DNA from: Chitinophaga pinensis
GTDB lineage: Bacteria > Bacteroidota > Bacteroidia > 2-12-FULL-35-15
Length of the DNA: 57,416 nt
Direction of reading: 5' to 3'
Assembly: GCA_945885475.1 (NCBI GenBank)
Contig: CAMCYR010000018.1
Location: 1-57,416, forward strand
Below the pieces are notes generated by a model that was not told the origin of the DNA, did not search any database, and was given only the letters and a program-made list of their open reading frames with translations. The translations under genes and the position numbers were made by a program. Positions within the stretch are counted from its first letter, which is position 1. Each line of letters begins with the position of its first letter. This document shows positions 9,559 through 32,892 of the stretch, one piece after another.

Positions 9559-11535
9559 ATGAATGCTTTTAAACAAATACAATTATTTTTATGCTTAACA
9601 GTTATGTTAGTTTGCATTCATAATTCTATTTCTTCTCAAAATGCTCCTCAAGGTTTTTTTTATCAAACCAATGTTAAAACGCTTACTGGTCTCAATCTTA
9701 TTAATGCTTCTGTTGGGATTCGTTTTTCGCTTTATTCCAATTCTCCATCTGGAGCCATGGTTTGGCAGGAAGATCATGCTTTGCTAACTGATGAAAATGG
9801 ATTAGCGACAACAGTAATTGGTTCAGGAGTTACAACCGGTGCTGGAACGTTGATTTATTTCAATCAAATAGAATGGTCACTTGGACTTTATTATTTAAAA
9901 GTTTCAATTGATATTTCAGGTGGAACTTCTTTTGTTGACTTTGGTAGTAGTCAGTTGTTTTCAGTTCCATATTCCTTATACTCAATGCAAACAAGTGCAA
10001 TGGAGAGTGTTAGTTTAGCCAATTTGTTAGATGTTGATACCTTGGGTAATTCGGTAGGTAAATTACTAAAATGGAATGGTAATTATTGGGCCCCTTCAAT
10101 TGACAATGATTCCGATACTATTCTGTATGCTTTTCAATCCAATCATTCTTCAGTAAGTGACACCGCTTTTTATACTTACGGTTCATTAGCATCGGATACT
10201 GTGTTTTTTGCATACAACACAGATAGTGCAAGTTATTCTCTTTTTTCTTCCAATTCAATTTATGCAGTTGATGCAAATTATGCAGATACCGCTTATTATG
10301 CATTTGAAAGTTCTCCATCAGCTTGGATACAAACTGGTAATGCTGTTTCTTCAAGTAATTATTTAGGTGTGAATGACAATACCGATCTGATTTTCAGAAC
10401 TAACAATCTTGCAAGAGCGAGATTGAAAAGCAATGGTGGTTTGGTTTTGGGTCAGCCTATTGGATCTGCTTCTTTTACAGTTTCAGGGAATGATGGAATT
10501 TTAGTTAGTGGTTCAATTGGAGCCTCATTTGCTCCTGTTAATGGTAGTGGTACTCGAATGCTTTGGTATCCTTCAAAAGCTTCTTTTAGAGCAGGTTCTG
10601 TAAGCTCAAGTCTTTGGGATGATTCTAATATTGGAAATTATTCTATTGCTGTTGGTTATGATACAAAAGCGCGATTGAGTTCTTTTGCTTCTGGATTTCA
10701 GTCGAAAGCATTAGACTATTCGATAGCCATTGGAAGAAAGTCAGAAGCAAATGCATCTAAAGCTTATCCTTATGGAAACAGTATCGCCTTGGGAGATAGC
10801 TGTGTTAGTAATGCACAACGATCCGTTGCCATTGGTTATGGAAACTTGAATGATTCTTCACTATTATCTAATATATCCTCTTCTGTATCTATTGGCTTCA
10901 TGAATAGAACACGAGCAAGTGTTACACTTTGTTTGGGCTCTTTTTGCAATTCGAATGTTGGCGCTAATTGGTCAACGGCCATCGGTTTTCATGCTACTAC
11001 AGCGCATATTGGCAGTTTTGTTTTTTCTGATGCATCTTCTTCTGCGTCTACTGTTTCCTCCGCAGCCAATCAGTTTTTAGTGAGGGCGAATGGAGGAATT
11101 GTTTTTTATACCGATTCTCTTAATACAATGTCTGTTACATTAGCTCCTGGAAGTGGAAGTTGGTCAACAGTTTCAGATAGAAATAAGAAAGAAAATTTTT
11201 CGGAGCTGAATTATCAAACTATTTTAGATGGAATAAATAAATTAAATATTAAAAGGTGGAATTATAAATCTCAGTCAGAGTCTATAAAGCATATTGGACC
11301 GATTGCTCAGAAATTTTATGAAACTTTTAAAGTAGGAGAAAGTAATACTAGTATTTCAACTTCAGATATCGATGGTGTTATACTTTCTGGAATAAAGGGA
11401 TTGAGCAATATAATTGAAAAATTAGATAATTTAAATGAAGTAGATCAGTTAAAACTAAAGATTGAAAAGATTAATTTTTCTACTGATTATACTGATCGAA
11501 TCAATAAAATAGAAGCTTTTTTAGATGCAAATTAA
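9559..11535 (+). CDS. Secreted fibre protein with YadA-head-like repeats and S74 chaperone (paralogue 1)
   Basis: 658 residues. A signal peptide (to about 26) precedes the Bacteroidota N-terminal domain beginning APQGFFYQTN and closing at SQLFSVPYSLYS (about 140). The middle holds DTAFYxY/DTVFFAYNTDSA repeats. Residues about 350-500 carry YadA-head-like motifs (GNYSIAVGYDTKA, YSIAIGRKSEA, RSVAIGYGNL). From S539 the sequence SDRNKKENF opens a peptidase S74 intramolecular chaperone of endosialidase/tail-fibre type, ending in a heptad-rich coiled coil. S74 domains trimerise fibres and cut themselves off near the Ser-Asp, using that Ser and a nearby Lys. No T9SS domain or outer-membrane anchor is visible. 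A paralogue follows 16 bp downstream. Confidence 0.87.
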   Translation: MNAFKQIQLFLCLTVMLVCIHNSISSQNAPQGFFYQTNVKTLTGLNLINASVGIRFSLYSNSPSGAMVWQEDHALLTDENGLATTVIGSGVTTGAGTLIYFNQIEWSLGLYYLKVSIDISGGTSFVDFGSSQLFSVPYSLYSMQTSAMESVSLANLLDVDTLGNSVGKLLKWNGNYWAPSIDNDSDTILYAFQSNHSSVSDTAFYTYGSLASDTVFFAYNTDSASYSLFSSNSIYAVDANYADTAYYAFESSPSAWIQTGNAVSSSNYLGVNDNTDLIFRTNNLARARLKSNGGLVLGQPIGSASFTVSGNDGILVSGSIGASFAPVNGSGTRMLWYPSKASFRAGSVSSSLWDDSNIGNYSIAVGYDTKARLSSFASGFQSKALDYSIAIGRKSEANASKAYPYGNSIALGDSCVSNAQRSVAIGYGNLNDSSLLSNISSSVSIGFMNRTRASVTLCLGSFCNSNVGANWSTAIGFHATTAHIGSFVFSDASSSASTVSSAANQFLVRANGGIVFYTDSLNTMSVTLAPGSGSWSTVSDRNKKENFSELNYQTILDGINKLNIKRWNYKSQSESIKHIGPIAQKFYETFKVGESNTSISTSDIDGVILSGIKGLSNIIEKLDNLNEVDQLKLKIEKINFSTDYTDRINKIEAFLDAN

Positions 11536-11551
11536 TTTTATATAACATTAA

Positions 11552-13546
11552 ATGGAAAATAAATTTCATAAAAAATATAATTTGGGATTGTTTCTTTTAC
11601 TCACCTTTTTTTCATTGGTATGTATTGGACAAACGGTGCCTCAAGGGATCAATTACCAGGGCTTGGCTAGAAACTCATCTGGTAACTTCATGATCAGCCA
11701 ACCAATCAGCCTTAAAATTGGTATTTATTCTTCCTCAATAACTGGTCCTTTGCAATGGGAAGAGGAACATTCTATTTCTACAAATCAATTGGGTATTTTT
11801 TATTGTGTTATTGGACAAGGAACTTCAACTACAGCCGGTGTTGCCACCTCCTTTTCTTCTATTAATTGGGGTGCAGCAGACCATTTCATAAAGATTGCGA
11901 TGGATGAAAGTGGTGGTAGTTCTTTTGTCGCGATTGATACAATTCAATTTTGGTCTGTGCCTTATGCATTGCACTCTGGTTCTTCCTCTAACATTTCCCA
12001 GCCCTTAAGATTAAGTCAGTTATCGGATGTTGACACATTGGGCATTAGCAACGGTTTGGTTTTGAAATGGGATGGAGCTCAATGGAAACCATCAAATGAC
12101 AACGATTCTGATACTGCTCAGTTTGCATTTAATTCTTCTTTTTCTAACTCATCTGATACAGCTTTTTATGCACTTAACGTATTATCTTCAACAGATACGA
12201 TAGGCTTTTCTTATAATTCTGACTCTGCAGCGTATTCTTCTAATTCGGGAATAGCAACAAATTCTCAAAATTCAAATTATTGTGACACTGCAACGTATGC
12301 ATTAAACAGTGGGAGTTCTTTTTTATATTGGAATTTGACCGGTAATAGTGGAACAAACTCCTTAAGCAATTTTATTGGAACAATCGATAATGTAGATTTT
12401 ATTCTCAAAACGAATAGTTTGGAAAGAATGAGAATAACCTCAGGTGGCAAAGTTGGAATTGGAACTGCCAATCCAAGTGCTTCTCTTCATGTTTTAGGAA
12501 ATGATGGTCTGGTGGCAGAAGGTACTTTTGGTTCGGGTACTCTTGCAGCAACCGGTGCTGGAACACGAATGCTTTGGTACCCTAAAAAGGCTGCTTTTAG
12601 AGTGGGTGGAGTTTCTTCTACGCAATGGGATGATGCTAATATCGGAAATTATTCATTTGCTTCTGGATATAACAATATCGGTTCTGGGGCATATTCAACT
12701 GTTTTAGGAAGTAGTTCAAGAGCAAGTGGAATGTATTCAATAGCTGCTTGTGAAAACTCTATTGCTACTGGTATTAGTTCAATTGCCATGGGTAGTGGTT
12801 GTATTGCTACGGGCCCATATTCAGTTGCACTTGGGCGTGGTAGTCTTGCTTCAGATTCGAGTGCAATCGCAATGGGCTATCATCCAAATGCTTCGGGTAA
12901 GTATTCACTTGCTTTCGGCAATTACACGGATGCTTCGGGAGCTTATTCCATTGTGTTTGGGTATCATGCAGATGCAAATTTCAAAAAAGGTAGTTTTGTT
13001 TATGCTGATGGTTCTTCTGTAAGCCCAACAATGAGTACTGCCGATAATCAATTTATGGTCAGAGCTTCTGGTGGATTTGTTTTTTATTCTAATACAGCGC
13101 TTACTGCAGGTGTTACCTTACCTGCAGGAGGTGGAAGTTGGTCCAGTGTTTCAGATAAGCACAAAAAGGAAAATTTTAAGAAAGTAGATGCTTCTGATAT
13201 ATTAGAAAAAATTAATAATTTGGAGATCAGTTCTTGGAACTATAAAACTCAAGCGGCATCAATTCGCCATATAGGACCTATGGCGCAAGATTTTTACAAA
13301 TTGTTTCAACTTGGAGAAAATGAAACTACCATTTCGACAATTGATATAGATGGCGTGAGTTTGTTAGCTATTCAGGAATTGTCAAAAAAATCAGTAATTC
13401 TGAAAGAGAGATCAGATGAGTTGGAGAAATTGAAGGCACAAGTGTTGAAATTAGAGGGTGAAAAAGTAGCATTGGAGAAGCGACTACAAGGAATAGAGAA
13501 TAAGTTAGAAAAAAGGTACTCTAGTCTCGCACTAAAGAACGACTAG
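11552..13546 (+). CDS. Secreted fibre protein with YadA-head-like repeats and S74 chaperone (paralogue 2)
   Basis: 664 residues with the same plan as its upstream neighbour: a signal peptide ending near CIGQ, an N-terminal domain (VPQGINYQGLARNSSG ... FWSVPYALHSG), and a segment of DSDTAQFAFNSS/SSDTAFYA repeats. Next comes a LERMRITSGGKVGIGTANPS motif typical of fibre shafts. At about 365-480 there are regular head repeats (GAYSTVLGSSSRASG, GMYSIAACENSIATG, ISSIAMGSGCIATG). The S74 chaperone starts at S534 (SDKHKKENF) and is followed by a long Leu/Glu/Lys coiled coil (about 610-655). Head repeats are cleaner and the shaft motif better kept than in paralogue 1, so the pair probably arose by duplication and then diverged. 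Predicted trimeric surface adhesin or fibre. Confidence 0.87.
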   Translation: MENKFHKKYNLGLFLLLTFFSLVCIGQTVPQGINYQGLARNSSGNFMISQPISLKIGIYSSSITGPLQWEEEHSISTNQLGIFYCVIGQGTSTTAGVATSFSSINWGAADHFIKIAMDESGGSSFVAIDTIQFWSVPYALHSGSSSNISQPLRLSQLSDVDTLGISNGLVLKWDGAQWKPSNDNDSDTAQFAFNSSFSNSSDTAFYALNVLSSTDTIGFSYNSDSAAYSSNSGIATNSQNSNYCDTATYALNSGSSFLYWNLTGNSGTNSLSNFIGTIDNVDFILKTNSLERMRITSGGKVGIGTANPSASLHVLGNDGLVAEGTFGSGTLAATGAGTRMLWYPKKAAFRVGGVSSTQWDDANIGNYSFASGYNNIGSGAYSTVLGSSSRASGMYSIAACENSIATGISSIAMGSGCIATGPYSVALGRGSLASDSSAIAMGYHPNASGKYSLAFGNYTDASGAYSIVFGYHADANFKKGSFVYADGSSVSPTMSTADNQFMVRASGGFVFYSNTALTAGVTLPAGGGSWSSVSDKHKKENFKKVDASDILEKINNLEISSWNYKTQAASIRHIGPMAQDFYKLFQLGENETTISTIDIDGVSLLAIQELSKKSVILKERSDELEKLKAQVLKLEGEKVALEKRLQGIENKLEKRYSSLALKND

Positions 13547-23642: not shown

Positions 23643-24326
23643 ATGAGTGATTTGAAAACGTTTTTAGTCGACAACCTTTCTGGCTTTTCACCTAAAGCCA
23701 TTCCTGGTTTTATATTCAGTTTTATAGTTTGTACAGTCCTTGCATTTATTTTAGGAAAATTTTATGTGCGTTACGGGAATGCCTTGTCGAACCGTAAGTC
23801 TTTCGCAAAGAACTTTATTGTCCTAGCAATCACTACCATGTTCATTATTTCTGTCGTGAAATCTTCCCTCGCATTGTCATTAGGTTTAGTGGGTGCCTTG
23901 TCTATTGTTCGTTTCCGTGCAGCTATTAAAGAACCGGAAGAGTTGACTTATTTGTTTTTAACCATTGCGATCGGTTTGGGTTGTGGTGCAAACCTCACCC
24001 TATTGACAGTTATCGCCTTTTTCGGTTTTATTGCTGTTATCTGGTTTGTAAACCGCTACCAAAAGAATGCCGAAGGTCAGAATTTGTACCTGACCATCAG
24101 CTCGAATCAACCACAGATAGTCGACTTGAAAATCATTGTTGAATTATTAAAGAAGTACTGCTCAGGCATTAAGTTAAAACGTACCGATGAAACGGCATCT
24201 GCCATGGAAGCATCCTTCTTTGTTGAATTTGATGATTTTGAAAAATTAGAGTTAGCGAAGGCGGAACTTAAAAACATGCACCCTTCCGTTTCCATCAGTT
24301 TTATGGATAATACCCGTGATTTTTAA
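23643..24326 (+). CDS. DUF4956 membrane protein
   Basis: 227 residues. Three to four membrane helices (about 22-40, 57-75, 76-90 and 104-132) are followed by a soluble alpha/beta domain of about 90 residues (LYLTISSNQPQIVDLKIIVELL ... VSISFMDN). The family hallmark GLVGALSIVRFRAA at 81-94 is intact, followed by IKEPEEL. Its biochemical role is not established. The family commonly lies next to VTC-domain and CotH genes, as here, which suggests it helps make, move or regulate polyphosphate or another phosphoryl donor at the membrane. The VTC gene follows 26 bp downstream. Confidence 0.92.
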   Translation: MSDLKTFLVDNLSGFSPKAIPGFIFSFIVCTVLAFILGKFYVRYGNALSNRKSFAKNFIVLAITTMFIISVVKSSLALSLGLVGALSIVRFRAAIKEPEELTYLFLTIAIGLGCGANLTLLTVIAFFGFIAVIWFVNRYQKNAEGQNLYLTISSNQPQIVDLKIIVELLKKYCSGIKLKRTDETASAMEASFFVEFDDFEKLELAKAELKNMHPSVSISFMDNTRDF

Positions 24327-24352
24327 ACGATCCATTTTATTCAAAAATAAAG

Positions 24353-25042
24353 ATGTCCTTAATTCAGTCGGAACCCTTGCGCTACGAGCGTAAATTTTTG
24401 ATCACCGATTATTCTCAAGCAGATGTGGCACAGCTGATCAAATTTCATCCGGCTTGTTTCACCGAGATCTTTCACAAGCGTACAATCAATAATATCTATT
24501 TCGATACTTTGGGAATGACCAATTATTTCGATAATGTAGAAGGCGAAAAAAATCGCATCAAGGTCAGGATGCGTTGGTACGGTAATCTTTTTGGAAACAT
24601 TCAATCACCCACGTTGGAGTATAAAATTAAAAAAGGATTGCTTGGAAACAAAGTATCTTATGTATTGAATCCCTTTGTGCTCGATACTGATTTTGATAAA
24701 AACCAGATCTCTCAGGCCTTAGATCGTGATTCGATTCCATTGTCTGTGAAAGAAGAAGTACTGTCACTGAAACCGACTTTACTGAACTCATACATCCGTA
24801 GCTATTATTTATCAGCGGACAAAAAATTCAGGATCACCATCGATCATCAGTTAACCTATTATAAAATTGCGTATTCAGGAAATACCTTTTTAAATAAAAA
24901 AACTGATTTTAATGCGACTGTACTGGAATTAAAATACGATTCAGTTTATGAAGAGGAAGCGAAAGAGGTAGGAAGTGCATTTCCTTTTATGCTGACGAAG
25001 AATTCGAAATATTTACAAGGATTAGAACGAGTATTTCTTTAG
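24353..25042 (+). CDS. VTC-domain polyphosphate polymerase family protein
   Basis: 229 residues, the size of a lone VTC tunnel domain. Tunnel-lining basic and acidic residues are all in place: RYERKF (10-15), YFDT (49-52), R68/K70/R72/R74 in NRIKVRMRW, EYKIKK (89-94), YIRSYY (147-152), ELKYD (192-196) and KNSKYLQGLE (216-225). In yeast Vtc4 this domain makes inorganic polyphosphate from ATP; bacterial relatives are annotated by homology. No SPX or membrane segment is attached, so membrane linkage could come from the DUF4956 partner encoded just upstream. CotH kinase 1 follows 26 bp downstream. Confidence 0.92.
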   Translation: MSLIQSEPLRYERKFLITDYSQADVAQLIKFHPACFTEIFHKRTINNIYFDTLGMTNYFDNVEGEKNRIKVRMRWYGNLFGNIQSPTLEYKIKKGLLGNKVSYVLNPFVLDTDFDKNQISQALDRDSIPLSVKEEVLSLKPTLLNSYIRSYYLSADKKFRITIDHQLTYYKIAYSGNTFLNKKTDFNATVLELKYDSVYEEEAKEVGSAFPFMLTKNSKYLQGLERVFL

Positions 25043-25068
25043 AATACGGTCAGACTCCCCTCAAAACA

Positions 25069-26793
25069 ATGAAGACAATCTTAAAAACCAAACCAAAGCA
25101 TTCTTTGCCGATCAAATTGGCAATGGCTTTTGTGTTTCTGATTGCCACAGCAGCATTTTTTTTTAGTGTTAAGTATTCCGGAAATAATAAAAATGATGTT
25201 CGTGCATTGAATCTGGATCTTTCAATTCTAATACCGGAATCGGCATCTCCGGGCGGCTTTTATCCGAAAGCATTTCCTGTTTCTTTGCAAGCCCCCGCAA
25301 CATTTAAAATATATTATACCCTAGATGGTTCAGAACCTTCTTTAAATTCTGAGCGGTATTCCGAGCCTTTAGTAATTCATGACCGTTCGGATGAGTCTGC
25401 TGTTTTAGCGGTTATCCCAACGTCTCCCCGCTGGAAACCTCCAGTAGGAGATTTATTCAAAGGTACCGTTCTGCGTGCGATATGTGTAAATGAAGCTGAT
25501 CAATCCAAAAGCCGGGAGCTGATCAGTACTTTTTTTATCAAAGAAAAAAAATATTCTATTCCTGTGATTGCCCTTACGCTGAATACTTCCGATTTTTTCG
25601 GATATAAAAACGGTATTTATGTCATGGGAAAAAATTATGAAGACAAACGGGATTATCTGCGAAAAAATCTGCCTTTGAATTTAAGCTGGTGGGAATACCC
25701 ATCTAATTATCTGAAAAGAGGTAGCAATGCTGAGCGACCTGCTCACATTGAGTTTTATGAAAGTAATGGAACATTGGCTTTTGAAAACAATGTAGGCGTT
25801 CGGATCAATGGGAATGCGACAAGAGGCTTCAGTCAAAAGTCTCTTCGGATCTGTTTCGATCAAAAATACGGAACGCCAGAACTGAAGTACCCCTTATTTC
25901 CGGAATGTAAAACGCAGACCTTTAGGAATTTTGTTTTAAGAAATTCGGGCAACGACTGGAATAAAACCATGTTCCGAGATGCCTTTATGCAATCCTTGAT
26001 GGAACCGTATCTCGACGTTCAGGCTTACCGCCCTTCCCTTGTTTTTCTGAATGGTGAATATTGGGGCATTCATAATATCCGGGAGCGATCGGATGAATAT
26101 TATTTGGCAGCAAAATATGCTATACCGTTAGATAGTCTTATTATTTTGGAGTTTGGCGGTGATGTTTTTTATGGTAAAAAACAAGACAATTCAGAATTTA
26201 AAGAATTGTTGGACTATATCCGGATCAATGACATGACTCAAGCTCATAATTATCAGTACATTGTGAATAAAATAGATGTCAATTCTTTTATGGATTTTAT
26301 TATTTCAAATGTGTATTTTTGTAATAGTGACTGGCCCAATAACAATGTGAAGTTTTGGCGTTTTCGGGTAGCTGAAAGTGGGGGAGATTCGCTTGGAGCA
26401 AGAGATGGTCGTTGGCGTTGGATGTTGTACGATACCGATTGGGGCTTCGGATATACCGGTCCCGATGCGATTCAGTTGAATCTGCTTGAAAAGGCAAAGA
26501 AGTATGGCAGTGTCGGCGCTCTTTTCAGCGGTTTATTGAAAAATAAGGAATTTGTTGAGCTTTTCAGGACCCGGTTTCAGTTTCATTTGAAAAATACATT
26601 TGAACAGAAAGCCCTTATTGCGAAAATTGACCGGTTTGAATCGGTGTTGGCTCCTGAAATACAGGAACACATTGACCGCTGGAGGGAGATCGGATCATGC
26701 AGCAATTGGGAAAAGCAGGTGCAGGAATTGCGTGTTTTTGCAAGAGATCGACCTGACATTCAGTTGAAACAATTGGATGATTTTTTAAAATAA
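25069..26793 (+). CDS. CotH-type protein kinase with chitobiase-like N-terminal domain
   Basis: 574 residues. One membrane helix (about 15-34) anchors it facing the periplasm or surface. Residues about 58-104 are a chitobiase/beta-hexosaminidase C-terminal-like module (PGGFYPKAFPVSL ... IYYTLDGSEPSLNS). The CotH domain follows (about 160-560): VGVRINGNATRGFSQKSLRI, GIHNIRERSDEYYL, a catalytic-loop-like NSDWPNNN with D421, and the metal-binding YDTDWGFG with D455/D457. In spore CotH these positions are needed for Ser phosphorylation of coat proteins using ATP. Extracytoplasmic members raise the question of the phosphate donor, and the linked VTC and DUF4956 genes make this notable. Confidence 0.9.
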   Translation: MKTILKTKPKHSLPIKLAMAFVFLIATAAFFFSVKYSGNNKNDVRALNLDLSILIPESASPGGFYPKAFPVSLQAPATFKIYYTLDGSEPSLNSERYSEPLVIHDRSDESAVLAVIPTSPRWKPPVGDLFKGTVLRAICVNEADQSKSRELISTFFIKEKKYSIPVIALTLNTSDFFGYKNGIYVMGKNYEDKRDYLRKNLPLNLSWWEYPSNYLKRGSNAERPAHIEFYESNGTLAFENNVGVRINGNATRGFSQKSLRICFDQKYGTPELKYPLFPECKTQTFRNFVLRNSGNDWNKTMFRDAFMQSLMEPYLDVQAYRPSLVFLNGEYWGIHNIRERSDEYYLAAKYAIPLDSLIILEFGGDVFYGKKQDNSEFKELLDYIRINDMTQAHNYQYIVNKIDVNSFMDFIISNVYFCNSDWPNNNVKFWRFRVAESGGDSLGARDGRWRWMLYDTDWGFGYTGPDAIQLNLLEKAKKYGSVGALFSGLLKNKEFVELFRTRFQFHLKNTFEQKALIAKIDRFESVLAPEIQEHIDRWREIGSCSNWEKQVQELRVFARDRPDIQLKQLDDFLK

Positions 26794-26866
26794 AAAAAGA
26801 ATTCACACAAGATAAACGATCCTTTTTTTGATGTCAGATATTAGCGCATATTAATATATAGAGAAA

Positions 26867-28219
26867 TTGCTTCAGTATTGTAAAGAAAATATTCAATTAT
26901 TTTTGATCCTGCCGATCTGGCTGATTGTTGGAATATATGGCGGTCCTCTAATTTATGGGGTTTTGCCTATTACGATGTTCCTGATGCAACGGAAGGACAT
27001 GTATGAGGAATTGTTGTTAGGTTATTTATTTATTCTCATCTTATCTGATAGTCAAGAAGGCGCCTTGTATTTTGCCAAGGAGGTTAAAAACATTTATATT
27101 TCGCTACTCGCAGTTTTTATATTCATTGACAGAAAGGATTTTCAGCCATTCAATGATCTCTATAAAATTTTTATTCCCTTTTTTGTGATCTCCCTCATCA
27201 CCATTTCATTCAGTACAGGTGATTCCTTCTTTCTGACGGGTGTTCAGAAAACAATTTCCTTCCTGCTTTCCTTTATTGTGATTCCGAATATTGTAATTAA
27301 ACTATACCGCGAGAATGGTATTCAGTTTTTAAGACGATTTGTACTATTTATTTTTACGGTATTGGTGATCGGTTTTTTGCTAAAATACATTCTGCCTGAA
27401 ACCGCTTTGCTGCTTGGAGAAAGATACCGAGGGATCTTTGGCGGACCGAATGGTTTGGGTGTTTTTTGTTTGCTTTCCTTCATTGCTTTTTTTGTGATCA
27501 ACAATTTTTTTCCGGAGCTGTTCACCAAGAATGAACGCATCTTGATAGTTGGCATCATTCTACTTTCCGTATTTTATTCTGGATCCCGTAACGCGCTTAT
27601 TTCGGTATTGATATTTTATATTTTTCAACGATTTTTTAGTCTTTCTCCCTTTTTAGGATTTATCTTATTTTTAGTAGCGCTATTTATTACAGATTTGATC
27701 AGCAGTAATGCCACTGCAATAGTTTTGTCATTAGGTCTAGGGGATTATTTTAGAACAAACACCATTGAAGAAGGTAGTGGAAGATACATTGCCTGGGCAT
27801 TTGCCTGGAACCAGATCCAAAATAATTTCTTTATAGGAAAAGGCTTTGCCTACAATGAATTTTACATGCGGCATCATTACGGTGAGTTGCTGAAGTTAAA
27901 TCATCAAGGCGGAATCCATAACTCTTTTTTAACCTTTTGGATGGATCAGGGCTTGGTTGGACTTTTAATTTATTTATATTCATATATATTAATGTTTATC
28001 AAGGCAGCAAAGAAATCAAAGTTCGCCTTCCCGATCATGTTTGCCATTTCTTTTTCCGCCTTTTTTGAATCTTGGTTAGTCGGCTCCCTAAGTCCTTTCG
28101 CTTTTATGGGAATGTTTGTTTTTACAATTATTACAAGTGAAGAAATTATTCCGCAAAGGGACGAAACAGACGCAAGGGTTCAAGAGGACGAAACACAAGC
28201 ACAAATAGCTGTTGTTTAA
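26867..28219 (+). CDS. O-antigen ligase / polymerase family membrane protein (Wzy/WaaL-like)
   Basis: 450 residues from a TTG at 26867; the next in-frame ATG lies after the first helix. About eleven hydrophobic helices, with a large loop before GIHNSFLTFWMDQGLVGLLIYLY-type sequence, the hallmark of the Wzy_C ligase/polymerase family with its functional His. The C-terminal tail is hydrophilic (RDETDARVQEDETQAQ). It would polymerise repeat units or ligate glycan to an acceptor in the periplasm. It sits between two CotH genes, so its acceptor might be a protein (inference). Confidence 0.87.
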   Translation: MLQYCKENIQLFLILPIWLIVGIYGGPLIYGVLPITMFLMQRKDMYEELLLGYLFILILSDSQEGALYFAKEVKNIYISLLAVFIFIDRKDFQPFNDLYKIFIPFFVISLITISFSTGDSFFLTGVQKTISFLLSFIVIPNIVIKLYRENGIQFLRRFVLFIFTVLVIGFLLKYILPETALLLGERYRGIFGGPNGLGVFCLLSFIAFFVINNFFPELFTKNERILIVGIILLSVFYSGSRNALISVLIFYIFQRFFSLSPFLGFILFLVALFITDLISSNATAIVLSLGLGDYFRTNTIEEGSGRYIAWAFAWNQIQNNFFIGKGFAYNEFYMRHHYGELLKLNHQGGIHNSFLTFWMDQGLVGLLIYLYSYILMFIKAAKKSKFAFPIMFAISFSAFFESWLVGSLSPFAFMGMFVFTIITSEEIIPQRDETDARVQEDETQAQIAVV

Positions 28220-28221
28220 AA

Positions 28222-30816
28222 ATGGAAATAGGAAAAAATAAAAACACATCCCTTCTCAAATCGGTTTTAAAGAATTCCGGTTTTAAAAAAATAGTAGCCG
28301 GTATACTACTTGTGTTATTGTTTATAGCTGCCTTCAAAGGTTCTGCTTTCATAAAGACGAAGGGCTATTCCGGACTGTGGGATTTTGTGGGTACCGTTTC
28401 CTCCAACTATTGGAAAGGCATGGATGCAAATCCTGAATCGATCTCCATCGAAATAAAAGACAAAGACATCAATATACTTGAGAAAAACAGACAACAGGCA
28501 ATTGAACGCGGATTGATCATCAACGATCTGGATGGCGAATATGTTCCGGCAACATTGGAATACAAAGGAAAAAAAATAAAAATTAAGTTACGCCTGAAAG
28601 GGCACATGACCGATCACATTGAAACCGATAACAAATGGTCGTTCAGGATCAAAGTAAAAGGCAATGATAATTTTATGGGGATGAAACGATTTTCCATCCA
28701 GCAACCCGGTACCCGCGGATACATTTATGAGTGGATCTATCACGAATTAATGAAGCGGGAAGATGTCATCGCTTTGCGGTATACATTTATCAATGTTTCT
28801 GTAAATGGTAAGGACTGGGGAATATATGCGATGGAAGAAAATTTCGATAAGGAATTGATCGAAAATAATCAACGGAAGCAAGGTCCTGTTATCCGCTTAA
28901 ATCCCGATCAATATTGGGTCAAACGCTTCAGTGACCATAAAAGAGACTACTTGACCTCCGAATTCGCTTCGTATTACTCTTCTAATTTTGAAGCGTATCA
29001 GGAAGATAAAATATTAGAGGATACAATCCAGAAAAATTATTACCTCAAAGGAATTGCTTTAGCTGAAGGTTTCAGGAACAGGAGATTGTCGGTTGCGCAG
29101 GTTTTTGATATTGACCGTTTGGCGAAATTTCATGCCATCATCGATTTGGTTGGCGGACAGCACAGCATCGATTGGAGTGATATTAAATATTATTACAATC
29201 CCGTTTCAGCAAGATTGGAGCCGGTTGCCTATGAAAGTTTCAGTAATTTTTCCATTCAGGGTATTACCGGAAATTATCGTTATGTTTCTATTGACAGCAA
29301 TGGTTCCTATGAAGACTGGCATACCGCTATTTTTAGTGATCCATTATTTTTTAGTGCCTACATTAAAAATTTAGAACGCATTTCTCAAACAAGCTATCTC
29401 GATGCTTTTTTTACTGCTGCTGAAAAAGACCTGGATGCAAATTTGAAAATTTTATACAAAGAATATCCGTATAAAAAATTTGAAACCAAATCGTATTATC
29501 GGAATCAGAACATGATCAACAAGATCCTGGAAGGTTCAAAAGCAGTTCATGCTTATTTCAAAGGTTTTTCATCAGGAGTGGTTTCGCTTCAGCTTGGAAA
29601 TATGGAATCGTTGCCACTCAGCATTCAATCTCTTGCTATCGGAAAGAACACATTCTTCTGTCAGCAGCCAACGATACTTGCTTCAAAAAAAGCGGATGAA
29701 AACATTGAATACCGTGATGTAAAATTTACGATACCTTCAACTTTTTCTTGGAACGATTCCTTACTATCTGAACTAAAAATTCAGTTTTCGGTATTGGGAG
29801 CTTCTAAAATACGGCAAGATCAGGTATATCCATTTCCGCGTACAGATTCTGAATTTATAGTGGAAGTACTCAAAAATAAAAAAAGCACGATCGCTGATTT
29901 TCCTTTTTTAAAGGTTGACGAACAAAATAAGCGTATTTATATACAGGCAGGTAATCATGTTGTAAATTCCGACCTGATCGTTCCTGCCGGCTATAAACTG
30001 CTTGCCAATGCCGGTGTTTCACTTGATTTTAAAAACAGTTCAAAGCTGGTTTCTTATTCAGCGTTGCTCTTTACCGGCACAGAAGATTTACCTGTGATCA
30101 TTCAATCGACCGATTCCAGCTCTCAAGGTATTCAGCTGATCAGTGCTCCGCGGTCTGGATTCAAATTTGTCGCTTTTAAAAATATTCCGGAGATAAATGA
30201 CTTGCAGTGGTCCAGATCGGGCGGACTGACATTTTATGAATCAGCTGTTGATTTTGTTTCTTGTTTTTTTTATAACAGTAAGGCGGAAGATGCGGTCAAT
30301 CTCATCCGCTCTGAATTTACGTTTGAAGGTTGTTTGTTTAAGAATATGAAAGATGACGGATTGGATGTTGATTTTTCTGAAGGAAAAATAACGAATTGCG
30401 CTTTCGAACAATGTGGTGAAAATGCGATCGATCTGACCATGAGTAAGGTAAATATTAAGTCCGTTTTTGTTGACGGTGCAGGGAATAAAGCATTCAACAT
30501 TAAAGCGGGATCTTACGTTGCGGGAAGCGATCTGAAAATAGAAAATGCAAACATCGCACTTTCTGCAGAAGACCATTCTTTCATTGATCTGGAAAATATA
30601 AAAATAATGGATACGGAAACCGGAGTGGTCGCCTACAAGAATAAACCAGGTGCTGGTCATCCTGAAATTAATTTGACAAATTGCAGCTTTTCAATTGTTA
30701 AAACAAAATATCTCAAAGAAAAAAAATCAAGCATCATTTCCAACGGAACAGTGATCAAAGAGGAAGTTAAGGATGTTGAAGCAATTATTAAAAATGATAA
30801 AAAGAAACATAAGTAA
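28222..30816 (+). CDS. CotH-like protein with C-terminal right-handed beta-helix
   Basis: 864 residues. One membrane helix (about 23-42), then a CotH-like domain: KIKLRLKGHMTDHIE, WSFRIKVKG, the hallmark GTRGYIYEWIYHELM and WGIYAMEENFDKELIEN, ending near 345. The catalytic-loop equivalent is SIDWSDIKYYYNP (315-327, D317). Where canonical CotH has a metal-binding D-x-D this protein reads PVAYESFS (334-341), so the second Asp site is absent or replaced by Glu338. Residues about 600-840 are a parallel beta-helix (SAVDFVSCFFYNS, FEGCLFKNMKDDGLDVDF, NCAFEQCGENAIDL), usually a carbohydrate-binding or -cleaving fold. Either a divergent kinase or a pseudokinase with a glycan-binding arm. Confidence 0.87.
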   Translation: MEIGKNKNTSLLKSVLKNSGFKKIVAGILLVLLFIAAFKGSAFIKTKGYSGLWDFVGTVSSNYWKGMDANPESISIEIKDKDINILEKNRQQAIERGLIINDLDGEYVPATLEYKGKKIKIKLRLKGHMTDHIETDNKWSFRIKVKGNDNFMGMKRFSIQQPGTRGYIYEWIYHELMKREDVIALRYTFINVSVNGKDWGIYAMEENFDKELIENNQRKQGPVIRLNPDQYWVKRFSDHKRDYLTSEFASYYSSNFEAYQEDKILEDTIQKNYYLKGIALAEGFRNRRLSVAQVFDIDRLAKFHAIIDLVGGQHSIDWSDIKYYYNPVSARLEPVAYESFSNFSIQGITGNYRYVSIDSNGSYEDWHTAIFSDPLFFSAYIKNLERISQTSYLDAFFTAAEKDLDANLKILYKEYPYKKFETKSYYRNQNMINKILEGSKAVHAYFKGFSSGVVSLQLGNMESLPLSIQSLAIGKNTFFCQQPTILASKKADENIEYRDVKFTIPSTFSWNDSLLSELKIQFSVLGASKIRQDQVYPFPRTDSEFIVEVLKNKKSTIADFPFLKVDEQNKRIYIQAGNHVVNSDLIVPAGYKLLANAGVSLDFKNSSKLVSYSALLFTGTEDLPVIIQSTDSSSQGIQLISAPRSGFKFVAFKNIPEINDLQWSRSGGLTFYESAVDFVSCFFYNSKAEDAVNLIRSEFTFEGCLFKNMKDDGLDVDFSEGKITNCAFEQCGENAIDLTMSKVNIKSVFVDGAGNKAFNIKAGSYVAGSDLKIENANIALSAEDHSFIDLENIKIMDTETGVVAYKNKPGAGHPEINLTNCSFSIVKTKYLKEKKSSIISNGTVIKEEVKDVEAIIKNDKKKHK

Positions 30817-31858
30817 ATTTTTTGTTTTTTCTGTTTGTTTGTTTCTGCTGCTGAATAAGCTTTCCGGACAAACGGTTTCGCCATTTAACAAATTGCCGCT
30901 TGCTGATACTTCAGGAAATTATTCTTTTATTGTCAGCGGTCATTTTCATGGCGAATCATCCAATCTATCCACCTTTCCTGCTTCCACTTTATTAGCGGGC
31001 ATTGATACGCTGAACAGTATTCGTCCATCGTTTATGATCAGTTTAGGAGATATGTTCATTGATTTGAATGAGACTTATGTTTCTAATTACAAAAAAAGTT
31101 TGTTCAGTAAATTGAATATGCCAATTTTTAATGCTGTTGGCAATCATGATCTTTCAAATAATAATTTTTACGAAAAAGTATATGGTAAAACGTATTACTC
31201 TTTTTCTGCCGGATCAGAATTATACATTGTTTTAAATACGGAAATAAATGACGGCAGCATTAAAAATGAGCAGTTAGAATTTTTAAAGAAGGCATTAGAG
31301 GAAGCGCAATCCGAAAAAGTTAAAAATATTTTTATTTTTTCTCACCGTCCTGTTTGGGCTGAAAACAATAGCACCTACGAAGGACTTTTTAAAGGGAATT
31401 CAAGAACCTTAATTGGTGAAAATAATTTTGAAGAGGATATAAAACCCTTATTATTGAATTTCCCGTCGTATAAACAATTGTATTGGATTTCCGGATCCTT
31501 GGCAAATGGACCAGTTTCATTTTTTTACAACAAAGAGCCAGATTCGAAGATCCTGTTCATGCAAACTGCTATTCGTGATCTGCCAAGAGATGCGGTACTT
31601 CAGATTGATGTGAAGAACGGAACTGTTTCTTTAAAAGGAATTTCTTTGACAGGTCAATCTCTTCAACCTATAGAAACCTATAATTTAGAGTATTGGAAGC
31701 AACGCATTGATGTGGAAGAACCGTTTAATTATCGTTTATTGCCCCTGTTAACAATGCAAATGCTGCTGCATCATTATTTTTGGATAGGTTTTGTTTCCTC
31801 TATATTACTTCTTTTACTATTCAGTTTTTTATATAACAGATGGAAAAAAAGAGGATAG
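30794..31858 (+). CDS. Membrane-anchored calcineurin-like metallophosphoesterase (degenerate metal site)
   Basis: 354 residues from ATG 30794, overlapping the CotH-like gene by 23 bp. A start at 30773 would add seven residues in front of a good signal peptide. Motifs: SGHFHG (48-53) where D-x-H is expected, GDMFID (85-90), GNHD (116-119), SHRP (183-186), and SGSLANG (233-239) at the usual G-H-x-H place. Thus the central metal motifs are kept and the first and last are altered. A C-terminal helix (about 328-347) plus RWKKRG would hold it in a membrane. Activity may be reduced or shifted; removal of phosphate added by the neighbouring CotH proteins is an attractive guess. Confidence 0.83.
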   Translation: MIKRNISKFFVFSVCLFLLLNKLSGQTVSPFNKLPLADTSGNYSFIVSGHFHGESSNLSTFPASTLLAGIDTLNSIRPSFMISLGDMFIDLNETYVSNYKKSLFSKLNMPIFNAVGNHDLSNNNFYEKVYGKTYYSFSAGSELYIVLNTEINDGSIKNEQLEFLKKALEEAQSEKVKNIFIFSHRPVWAENNSTYEGLFKGNSRTLIGENNFEEDIKPLLLNFPSYKQLYWISGSLANGPVSFFYNKEPDSKILFMQTAIRDLPRDAVLQIDVKNGTVSLKGISLTGQSLQPIETYNLEYWKQRIDVEEPFNYRLLPLLTMQMLLHHYFWIGFVSSILLLLLFSFLYNRWKKRG

Positions 31859-32892
31859 TTTTTTTATATACGGAGATCGCCACTTATTTTTTGGCCTGTA
31901 TCGAAAAATTAGCTCAACAGCCCAATGTTGACATTACTGTTATCCGTTGGCCCGTAAATCAAGAAGCTCCTTTTGATTTTTTATTTTCTGAACAGATTTC
32001 ATTTTACGATCGGGGAGATTTTAGATCAAACGAAAAACTACTTGAATTCGTTTCGCAATTAAATCCTTCGATACTCTATTGCAGTGGCTGGATCGATAAA
32101 GGCTATTTGTCTGTTTGCAAGCAATTCAGATCTAAAATTCCTGTGATTGTTGGTTTTGATAATCAATGGACCGGTAGCCTGAAGCAACAGATTGCACGGG
32201 TCCTGAGCCCTTTTAAAATTTTAAATCATTTTTCCCATTGCTGGGTTCCGGGAGATCTGCAGGAAGTGTATGCAGGGAAGCTCGGATTTAAAAAAGAACA
32301 GATTTTGACCGGATTCTATAGCTGTGATTTCGGCTTTTTTTATGAGCAGTATCTTGCCAATAAAGATGCGAAACGAATCTCCTTTCCCAAACGATTTATT
32401 TATGTCGGTCGGTATTACGAGTTCAAAGGAATCCGTAATTTATGGAATGCATTTATTGAGTTACAAGAAGAGTTTCCAAATGAATGGGAATTGTGGTGCT
32501 TAGGAACAGGAGATATACAGCCAGTCGTTCATCCGAAGATCAAACATTTCGGTTTTGTTCAGCCTGCAGTTCTGAACCATTATATGAAAAATACCGGGGT
32601 GTTTGTGTTGCCTAGTTTTTTTGAACCCTGGGGCGTTGTTGTTCATGAATATGCTTCAGCTGGTTTTCCGCTTATTTGTTCTGATAAAGTAGGTGCATCT
32701 TCAACTTTTGTTGAAAATAATTATAATGGTTATATTTACAAATCAGATAGTGTTTTTGAATTAAAACAAACCATGTTGAAAATGATTCATTCAGATACTG
32801 TTACTTTAATTGAAATGGCAGACCGAAGTATTGAAAAAGCAAAACAAATTACTCCGGAAATCTGGGCAAAAAAATTAGTCTCATTGTTATGA
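31840..32892 (+). CDS. GT-B glycosyltransferase, family 4 type
   Basis: 350 residues. Overlaps the phosphoesterase gene by 19 bp. RFIYVGRYYEFKGIRNLW starts the nucleotide-binding half. The signature FEPWGVVVHEYASAGFPLI keeps E-x7-E (Glu in FEPWG and in HEY), followed by CSDKVGASSTFV. Coupled to the next gene by an ATGA overlap (32889-32892). Likely adds a sugar supplied by the adjacent epimerase/aminotransferase pair, though this cannot be proved from sequence. Confidence 0.88.
   Translation: MEKKRIVFLYTEIATYFLACIEKLAQQPNVDITVIRWPVNQEAPFDFLFSEQISFYDRGDFRSNEKLLEFVSQLNPSILYCSGWIDKGYLSVCKQFRSKIPVIVGFDNQWTGSLKQQIARVLSPFKILNHFSHCWVPGDLQEVYAGKLGFKKEQILTGFYSCDFGFFYEQYLANKDAKRISFPKRFIYVGRYYEFKGIRNLWNAFIELQEEFPNEWELWCLGTGDIQPVVHPKIKHFGFVQPAVLNHYMKNTGVFVLPSFFEPWGVVVHEYASAGFPLICSDKVGASSTFVENNYNGYIYKSDSVFELKQTMLKMIHSDTVTLIEMADRSIEKAKQITPEIWAKKLVSLL

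Follow-up and report, generated by a model that had tools for sequence, protein, structure and literature searches.

Genes for DUF4956, a VTC-type polyphosphate polymerase and CotH proteins are already known to occur together. Pel loci of streptococci, clostridia and bifidobacteria carry the accessory genes cotH, PPP (VTC), DUF4956 and DUF4832, with no function tested in that paper (PMC7112168), and in the Clostridium perfringens NELoc-2 locus (CP4_0460-0465) VTC lies beside CotH and membrane proteins annotated as tubulin/FtsZ-like, with no tested function (PMC2879425). In yeast, the synthesis of polyphosphate (polyP) is coupled to its translocation via basic TM1 residues, and Vtc4 has been inactivated by mutation of R264, R266 and E426 (PMC9911596).

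The locus described here resembles the Pel loci in that DUF4956, a VTC-type polymerase and CotH are linked to an exopolysaccharide locus, but it also has a Wzy ligase, a beta-helix CotH2 and a phosphoesterase, none of which is named in the available part of that source. With NELoc-2 it shares the position of VTC next to CotH, the annotated membrane proteins there being possible counterparts of DUF4956, although NELoc-2 is a Gram-positive locus for which neither a ligase nor a CotH2 is named. The yeast complex (Vtc1/3/4) likewise combines a TTM polymerase, whose tunnel residues are the same, with a membrane partner that has conserved basic residues, but it has a Vtc1-type TM part (15 helices per complex) and SPX domains; DUF4956 has a ferredoxin-like domain and no detected sequence relation to the yeast TM part. 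DltB/DltD-type extracytoplasmic acyl transfer provides an analogy only, with a cytosolic donor, passage through the membrane and transfer outside, given that its chemistry is different and its proteins are unrelated.

The literature searched, which took in subscription journals sparsely and no preprints, held no paper on the joint function of DUF4956, VTC and CotH, no report of the extended block, of the widespread beta-helix CotH2 core or of the degeneration of DUF4956, and no biochemistry for any bacterial block member.

Organization of the block and its genomic setting

The window, i.e., the whole stretch of 57,416 nucleotides that was analysed, lies on contig C18 of a Bacteroidota genome of 3.06 Mb. 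The six-gene block found at 23643-31858 is real and beyond chance, with DUF4956, VTC, CotH1, Wzy_C, CotH2 with its Beta_helix, and Metallophos abutting one another (Table 1) at intergenic spacings, counted into the following GT4 gene, of 26, 26, 73, 2, -44 and -19 nt. An earlier note on this DNA had described these six genes as almost gapless, and Pfam matches and spacings placed all of them as described; its outline of the block has been amended in two respects, as it left out the GT4 gene and labelled as a phosphoesterase a protein whose metal site is non-canonical. The GT4 gene overlaps the phosphoesterase gene, which it also follows in most of the loci defined below as type I, and the Wzy_C protein has eight hydrophobic segments over the threshold, in line with a multi-TM O-antigen ligase/polymerase.

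Table 1. Features of the block and of its neighbouring GT4 gene, in nucleotide positions of the window
Feature	Position	Strand	Evidence
DUF4956 membrane protein, 227 aa	23643..24326	+	Pfam PF16316 4e-17
DUF4956 basic motif, residues 81-96, GLVGALSIVRFRAAIK, end of helix 3	23883..23930	+	
VTC-domain polyphosphate polymerase, 229 aa, soluble, predicted cytosolic	24353..25042	+	PF09359 2.7e-27
CotH1: N-terminal anchor, CHB_HEX_C/Fn3_assoc, canonical CotH kinase domain	25069..26793	+	PF08757 5e-49 (residues 244-563)
O-antigen ligase/polymerase family membrane protein (Wzy_C)	26867..28219	+	PF04932 2e-12
CotH2: N-terminal anchor, divergent CotH kinase domain, right-handed Beta_helix	28222..30816	+	Pfam 1e-8 (CotH), 2e-10 (Beta_helix)
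CotH2 kinase-like domain, residues 70-438, altered active site (D317, D320, E333)	28429..29535	+	
CotH2 beta-helix, residues 548-851, polysaccharide epimerase/lyase-like	29863..30774	+	
Metallophosphoesterase-fold protein, predicted exported, C-terminal membrane anchor	30773..31858	+	PF00149 1.7e-5
GT4 glycosyltransferase, conserved last block member	31840..32892	+	Pfam; same place in most type I loci

The surroundings of the block form a surface-polysaccharide locus, which encodes a Wzz/tyrosine-kinase-type protein, an ABC exporter with a Wzt C-terminal domain, many glycosyltransferases, acyl- and pyruvyl-transferase families and an asparagine synthase. This locus also encodes two neighbouring proteins that combine YadA-head repeats with a Peptidase_S74 (endosialidase chaperone) domain (window 9559-13546).

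Conservation and architectures

The order DUF4956-VTC-CotH1-Wzy-CotH2-phosphoesterase-GT4 is identical in two genomes of the same genus and in one of another family, and the block of a fourth relative lacks only the ligase, GT4 and the beta-helix. Many uncultured bacteria have the block, and some archaea have a shortened version of it. The block genes are under purifying selection, with omega values of 0.06-0.20 against the nearest relative (L060), a comparison in which omega was taken where dS was below saturation.

An alignment of CotH2 was scanned against 84,980 species, which yielded 139 relatives and 79 loci that were kept. Three neighbourhood architectures were recognised among these loci, counted as non-redundant rows, with 17 further rows being incomplete or lacking a VTC call. 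Type I (18 loci) has the order of the window, with VTC kept beside CotH1 and/or the ligase, so that the linkage of the VTC part to the ligase part, on which the earlier note had made its proposal depend, proves to be conserved in these loci. Type II (26) is a three-gene core, mostly DUF4956-CotH2-VTC, found in KSB1, Omnitrophota, Planctomycetota, Chloroflexota, Nitrospirota, Pseudomonadota, Saprospiraceae and Pacearchaeota/Woesearchaeota, and type III (22), found in Flavobacteriales and relatives, has CotH1-Wzy-CotH2-phosphoesterase in a locus without VTC. In the CotH2 tree, types I and III group together among the type II sequences, in a clade with an SH-aLRT support of 100. A single change suffices to account for the presence of VTC in the locus.

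VTC and its linkage to DUF4956 and CotH

The block VTC aligns with yeast Vtc4 (3g3q) at 1.9e-12, and the equivalents of Vtc4 K200, R264, R266, K294, R361, R373, E426, K428, S457 and K458 are identical in all 54 block VTCs; when K281 is included, the basic residues of the TTM tunnel and the catalytic Glu are identical in 53 or 54 of 54, and all are present in the window VTC. As every tunnel and catalytic residue checked is kept, VTC should make polyphosphate. None of 55 VTCs has an N-terminal anchor, and that of the window has no membrane helix. The genome also encodes PPK1, and polyP could therefore have other sources; by the same token the ordinary storage of polyP would not depend on VTC, which is consistent with a dedicated role without proving it.

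A sample of 149 genomes of the class was surveyed for the linkage of these genes; VTC occurs in 69 of them, DUF4956 in 81 and CotH in 85. All 69 VTC genomes have DUF4956, which adjoins 71 of the 76 VTC genes (at most 1 kb apart, same strand), and CotH is present in 68 of the 69 genomes with VTC as against 17 of the 80 without it (Fisher 7e-25, uncorrected for phylogeny, which overstates independence because the genomes are related). The coupling of VTC and DUF4956 as one unit is well supported.

Another 20 VTC-DUF4956 pairs, taken without selection and having the commoner VTC-first order, were examined as well. A strong CotH match (>100 bits) lies within ~8 kb of 11 of them, and 12 are flanked by a conserved gene, a representative of which matches the outer-membrane-type family DUF2490. 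The genome of the window itself has a second VTC-DUF4956 pair (L044, G000:C7:14000-33900) with two CotH proteins. These CotHs carry lamin-tail domains and, in addition, tails for type IX secretion, owing to which they are expected to work outside.

The CotH proteins and the phosphoesterase-fold protein

N-terminal anchors were predicted in 43 of 47 CotH1 and 88 of 91 CotH2 proteins, with a positive-inside bias in 37 and 81 respectively. This predicted topology would place both proteins facing the periplasm, in support of the orientation that had been proposed from their N-terminal membrane helices.

The Bacillus spore-coat protein BsCotH is a Ser/Thr kinase, of which D228Q is an inactive variant (PMC7821199). 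CotH1 shares its catalytic residues, given that D421, D455 and D457 align with D228 and the DxD motif and that N426 is also kept, and CotH2 shares its fold, but the block CotHs differ from it in being membrane-anchored and predicted extracytoplasmic, and CotH2 also in its changed active site and in the beta-helix, similar to that of AlgG, that it carries. The expectation that CotH1 would lose its catalytic residues once VTC is lost from the locus proved wrong, as these residues are kept in type III.

A sequence search of the PDB returned no CotH match for CotH1 and a single one, 5jd9 (E 0.059), for CotH2. The fold of CotH2 is settled beyond this weak match by structure comparison, as residues 70-438 of its AlphaFold model (mean pLDDT 89.5) superpose on 5jd9 with Z 26.7 and an rmsd of 3.2 over 317 residues; its alignment with CotH1 reaches an hhalign probability of 96.9. 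The beta-helix that had been noticed on this second CotH-like protein is confirmed by the model (residues 548-851), being closest to AlgG, an alginate epimerase of the periplasm (Z 27.5), and also matching polysaccharide lyases.

The active site of CotH2 is altered, as the first D of the DxD motif is E or D and the second is absent, and the D228 position falls on D317 or on H314/S315, depending on the alignment method. Residues 320 and 333 are mostly N and D in type II, as in canonical CotH, and D and E in types I and III. In the phosphoesterase-fold protein, the GD, GNHD and H motifs of calcineurin-like metal sites are kept out of the full set of five (DxH, GD, GNHD, H, GHxH); throughout the block family the motif I Asp is replaced (D to H, GHFHG/GHFYG) and the motif V His is lost (SGS instead). 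A C-terminal anchor was predicted in 38 of 46 of these proteins and an N-terminal hydrophobic segment in 30 of 46, which would leave the catalytic part outside. The membrane phosphoesterase proposed earlier stands as a membrane-anchored protein with its fold predicted outside, while the trimming of phosphate ascribed to it is weakened by the family-wide loss of canonical metal ligands.

Given these losses, together with the missing second D of CotH2 and its uncertain D228 position, CotH2 and the phosphoesterase-fold protein might be non-catalytic scaffolds that bind a phosphorylated glycan and organise the ligase, which would leave CotH1 as the sole phosphorylating enzyme. We regard this as very unlikely, since the type II core has no CotH besides CotH2, which there mostly has N320 and D333 as in canonical CotH, and since K138, R142 and E205/E206 of CotH2 are at least 96% conserved.

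DUF4956 and a putative transmembrane phosphorylation module

The AlphaFold model of DUF4956 (pLDDT 78) has five helices, predicted to span the membrane, at residues 19-44, 51-71, 74-90, 98-115 and 119-143, followed by a C-terminal ferredoxin/ACT-like domain (146-222, beta-alpha-beta-beta-alpha-beta) that matches ACT/S6-like folds at Z ~10. In the basic motif (Table 1), G81, L82, V83, G84, A85, S87, I88, R90 and R92 are invariant among 50 sequences. No channel homologue was recognised by the structure search, the matches of which cover the soluble domain only, and the profile match of the membrane part to MgtC (hhalign probability 5%, 17% identity over 117 columns, with only three MgtC sequences) is too weak for a kinship to be claimed. 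Two long open reading frames checked as natural fusions, L165 (424 aa) and L149 (491 aa), hold just one of the two domains. By analogy, the conserved basic motif and the adjacency to VTC suggest that DUF4956 may work like a Vtc1-type polyP channel.

Taken as a whole, the block may constitute one transmembrane phosphorylation module, a scheme that we hold tentatively, at slightly less than an even chance. VTC, with its complete active site, would make polyphosphate from ATP in the cytosol, held at the membrane by the ferredoxin-like cytosolic domain of DUF4956, and the polyanion would be taken up at the conserved basic RFR..K motif of the latter, for which the basic residues in TM1 of the yeast channel offer an analogy. 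On the far side of the inner membrane, the anchored CotH1 and CotH2 would phosphorylate a glycan or glycoprotein of the cell surface while the adjacent Wzy_C protein polymerises or ligates it, and the phosphoesterase-fold protein could be, at a guess, an accessory or binding factor on the phosphorylated glycan.

ATP is scarce outside the cytoplasm, and for this reason polyP that has been exported, or a compound derived from it, would be the likeliest high-energy donor there, which is the weakest step of the scheme. We infer both the passage of polyP through DUF4956 and its use as phosphoryl donor; in its broadest form, in which VTC-DUF4956 exports polyP as an ATP-independent extracytoplasmic donor for CotH kinases acting on surface glycans across bacteria and archaea, the proposal is doubtful. 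The earlier model, in which polyP exported by VTC and DUF4956 feeds CotH kinases and a phosphoesterase trims the product, is supported in part: it keeps its VTC/DUF4956 coupling, its predicted CotH topology and its link to the ligase, and the role given to the phosphoesterase is weakened.

If true, the module would supply a phosphate donor, through a cytosolic polyP polymerase and a membrane coupler, to CotH-family extracytoplasmic kinases that have no obvious one. It would also give a joint role to DUF4956, a family of unknown function, to bacterial VTC and to CotH proteins, and suggest how cells phosphorylate targets outside the cytoplasm.

Co-loss in type III loci and possible alternative roles for polyphosphate

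In one Flavobacteriales branch, the disappearance of VTC from the locus coincides with that of two parts of DUF4956, its basic motif and its cytosolic domain, while CotH1, the ligase, CotH2 and the phosphoesterase stay. The basic motif is gone in all type III loci, where DUF4956 has shrunk to ~134 residues, and the remnant still has its N-terminal segment and hydrophobic frame, immediately upstream of CotH1 (L095, L101, L103 and others). Given that the frame is kept beside CotH1 after the loss of VTC and of these parts, DUF4956 looks like a two-sided coupler, with one face towards VTC/polyP and the other towards the CotH side. The co-loss is a correlation of n=1, as it represents one evolutionary event, and it leads to concrete, testable predictions on the role of each part.

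The persistence of the four genes without VTC in the locus implies that local polyP is not always needed, an argument tempered by second VTC genes. All 23 type III genomes searched have a VTC elsewhere, which rules out that they are devoid of the enzyme, and this second VTC may supply polyP in trans.

The same persistence is hard to reconcile with a role of exported polyP as the surface product itself, i.e., a polyP coat or a polyP-decorated glycan that the CotHs prime or anchor through glycan phosphorylation that is not fed by polyP. The same genes and topology would serve this role, the ligase and the glycan-type beta-helix domain suit anchoring, and VTC is fully conserved, yet we consider it unlikely. 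On the other hand, the CotHs could draw on ATP or on nucleotides that have been released into the periplasm, with VTC-DUF4956 as a separate phosphate-store or regulatory unit merely co-inherited with envelope loci. The kinase activity of BsCotH, the intact active-site residues of type III CotH1 without a local VTC and the presence of PPK1 are consistent with this, but the recurrence of the DUF4956-CotH2-VTC core in distant phyla and archaea and the co-occurrence of CotH with VTC in the class genomes make it rather unlikely.

Additional genes within related loci

Several related loci have further genes within or beside the block. Same-genus loci (L040:11725-14324, L041:6481-9067, also L065, L067 and L076) encode, in the interval from Wzy to CotH2, an MBOAT O-acyltransferase and an SGNH protein that weakly resembles DltD, which looks like the insertion of a unit for extracytoplasmic acylation into the block. 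A GDSL/SGNH-like protein (weak Pfam match) occupies the same interval in L042:13421-14161, L079:8922-9860 and L107:5567-6490. An extra CYTH-domain (triphosphate tunnel) protein lies between DUF4956 and CotH2 in type II loci of Saprospiraceae (L129:8509-9408, L132, L133, L135, L137 and L138). Finally, a protein of the type I phosphodiesterase/nucleotide pyrophosphatase family is encoded just upstream of the DUF4956 remnant in several Crocinitomix type III loci (L104:5128-6600).
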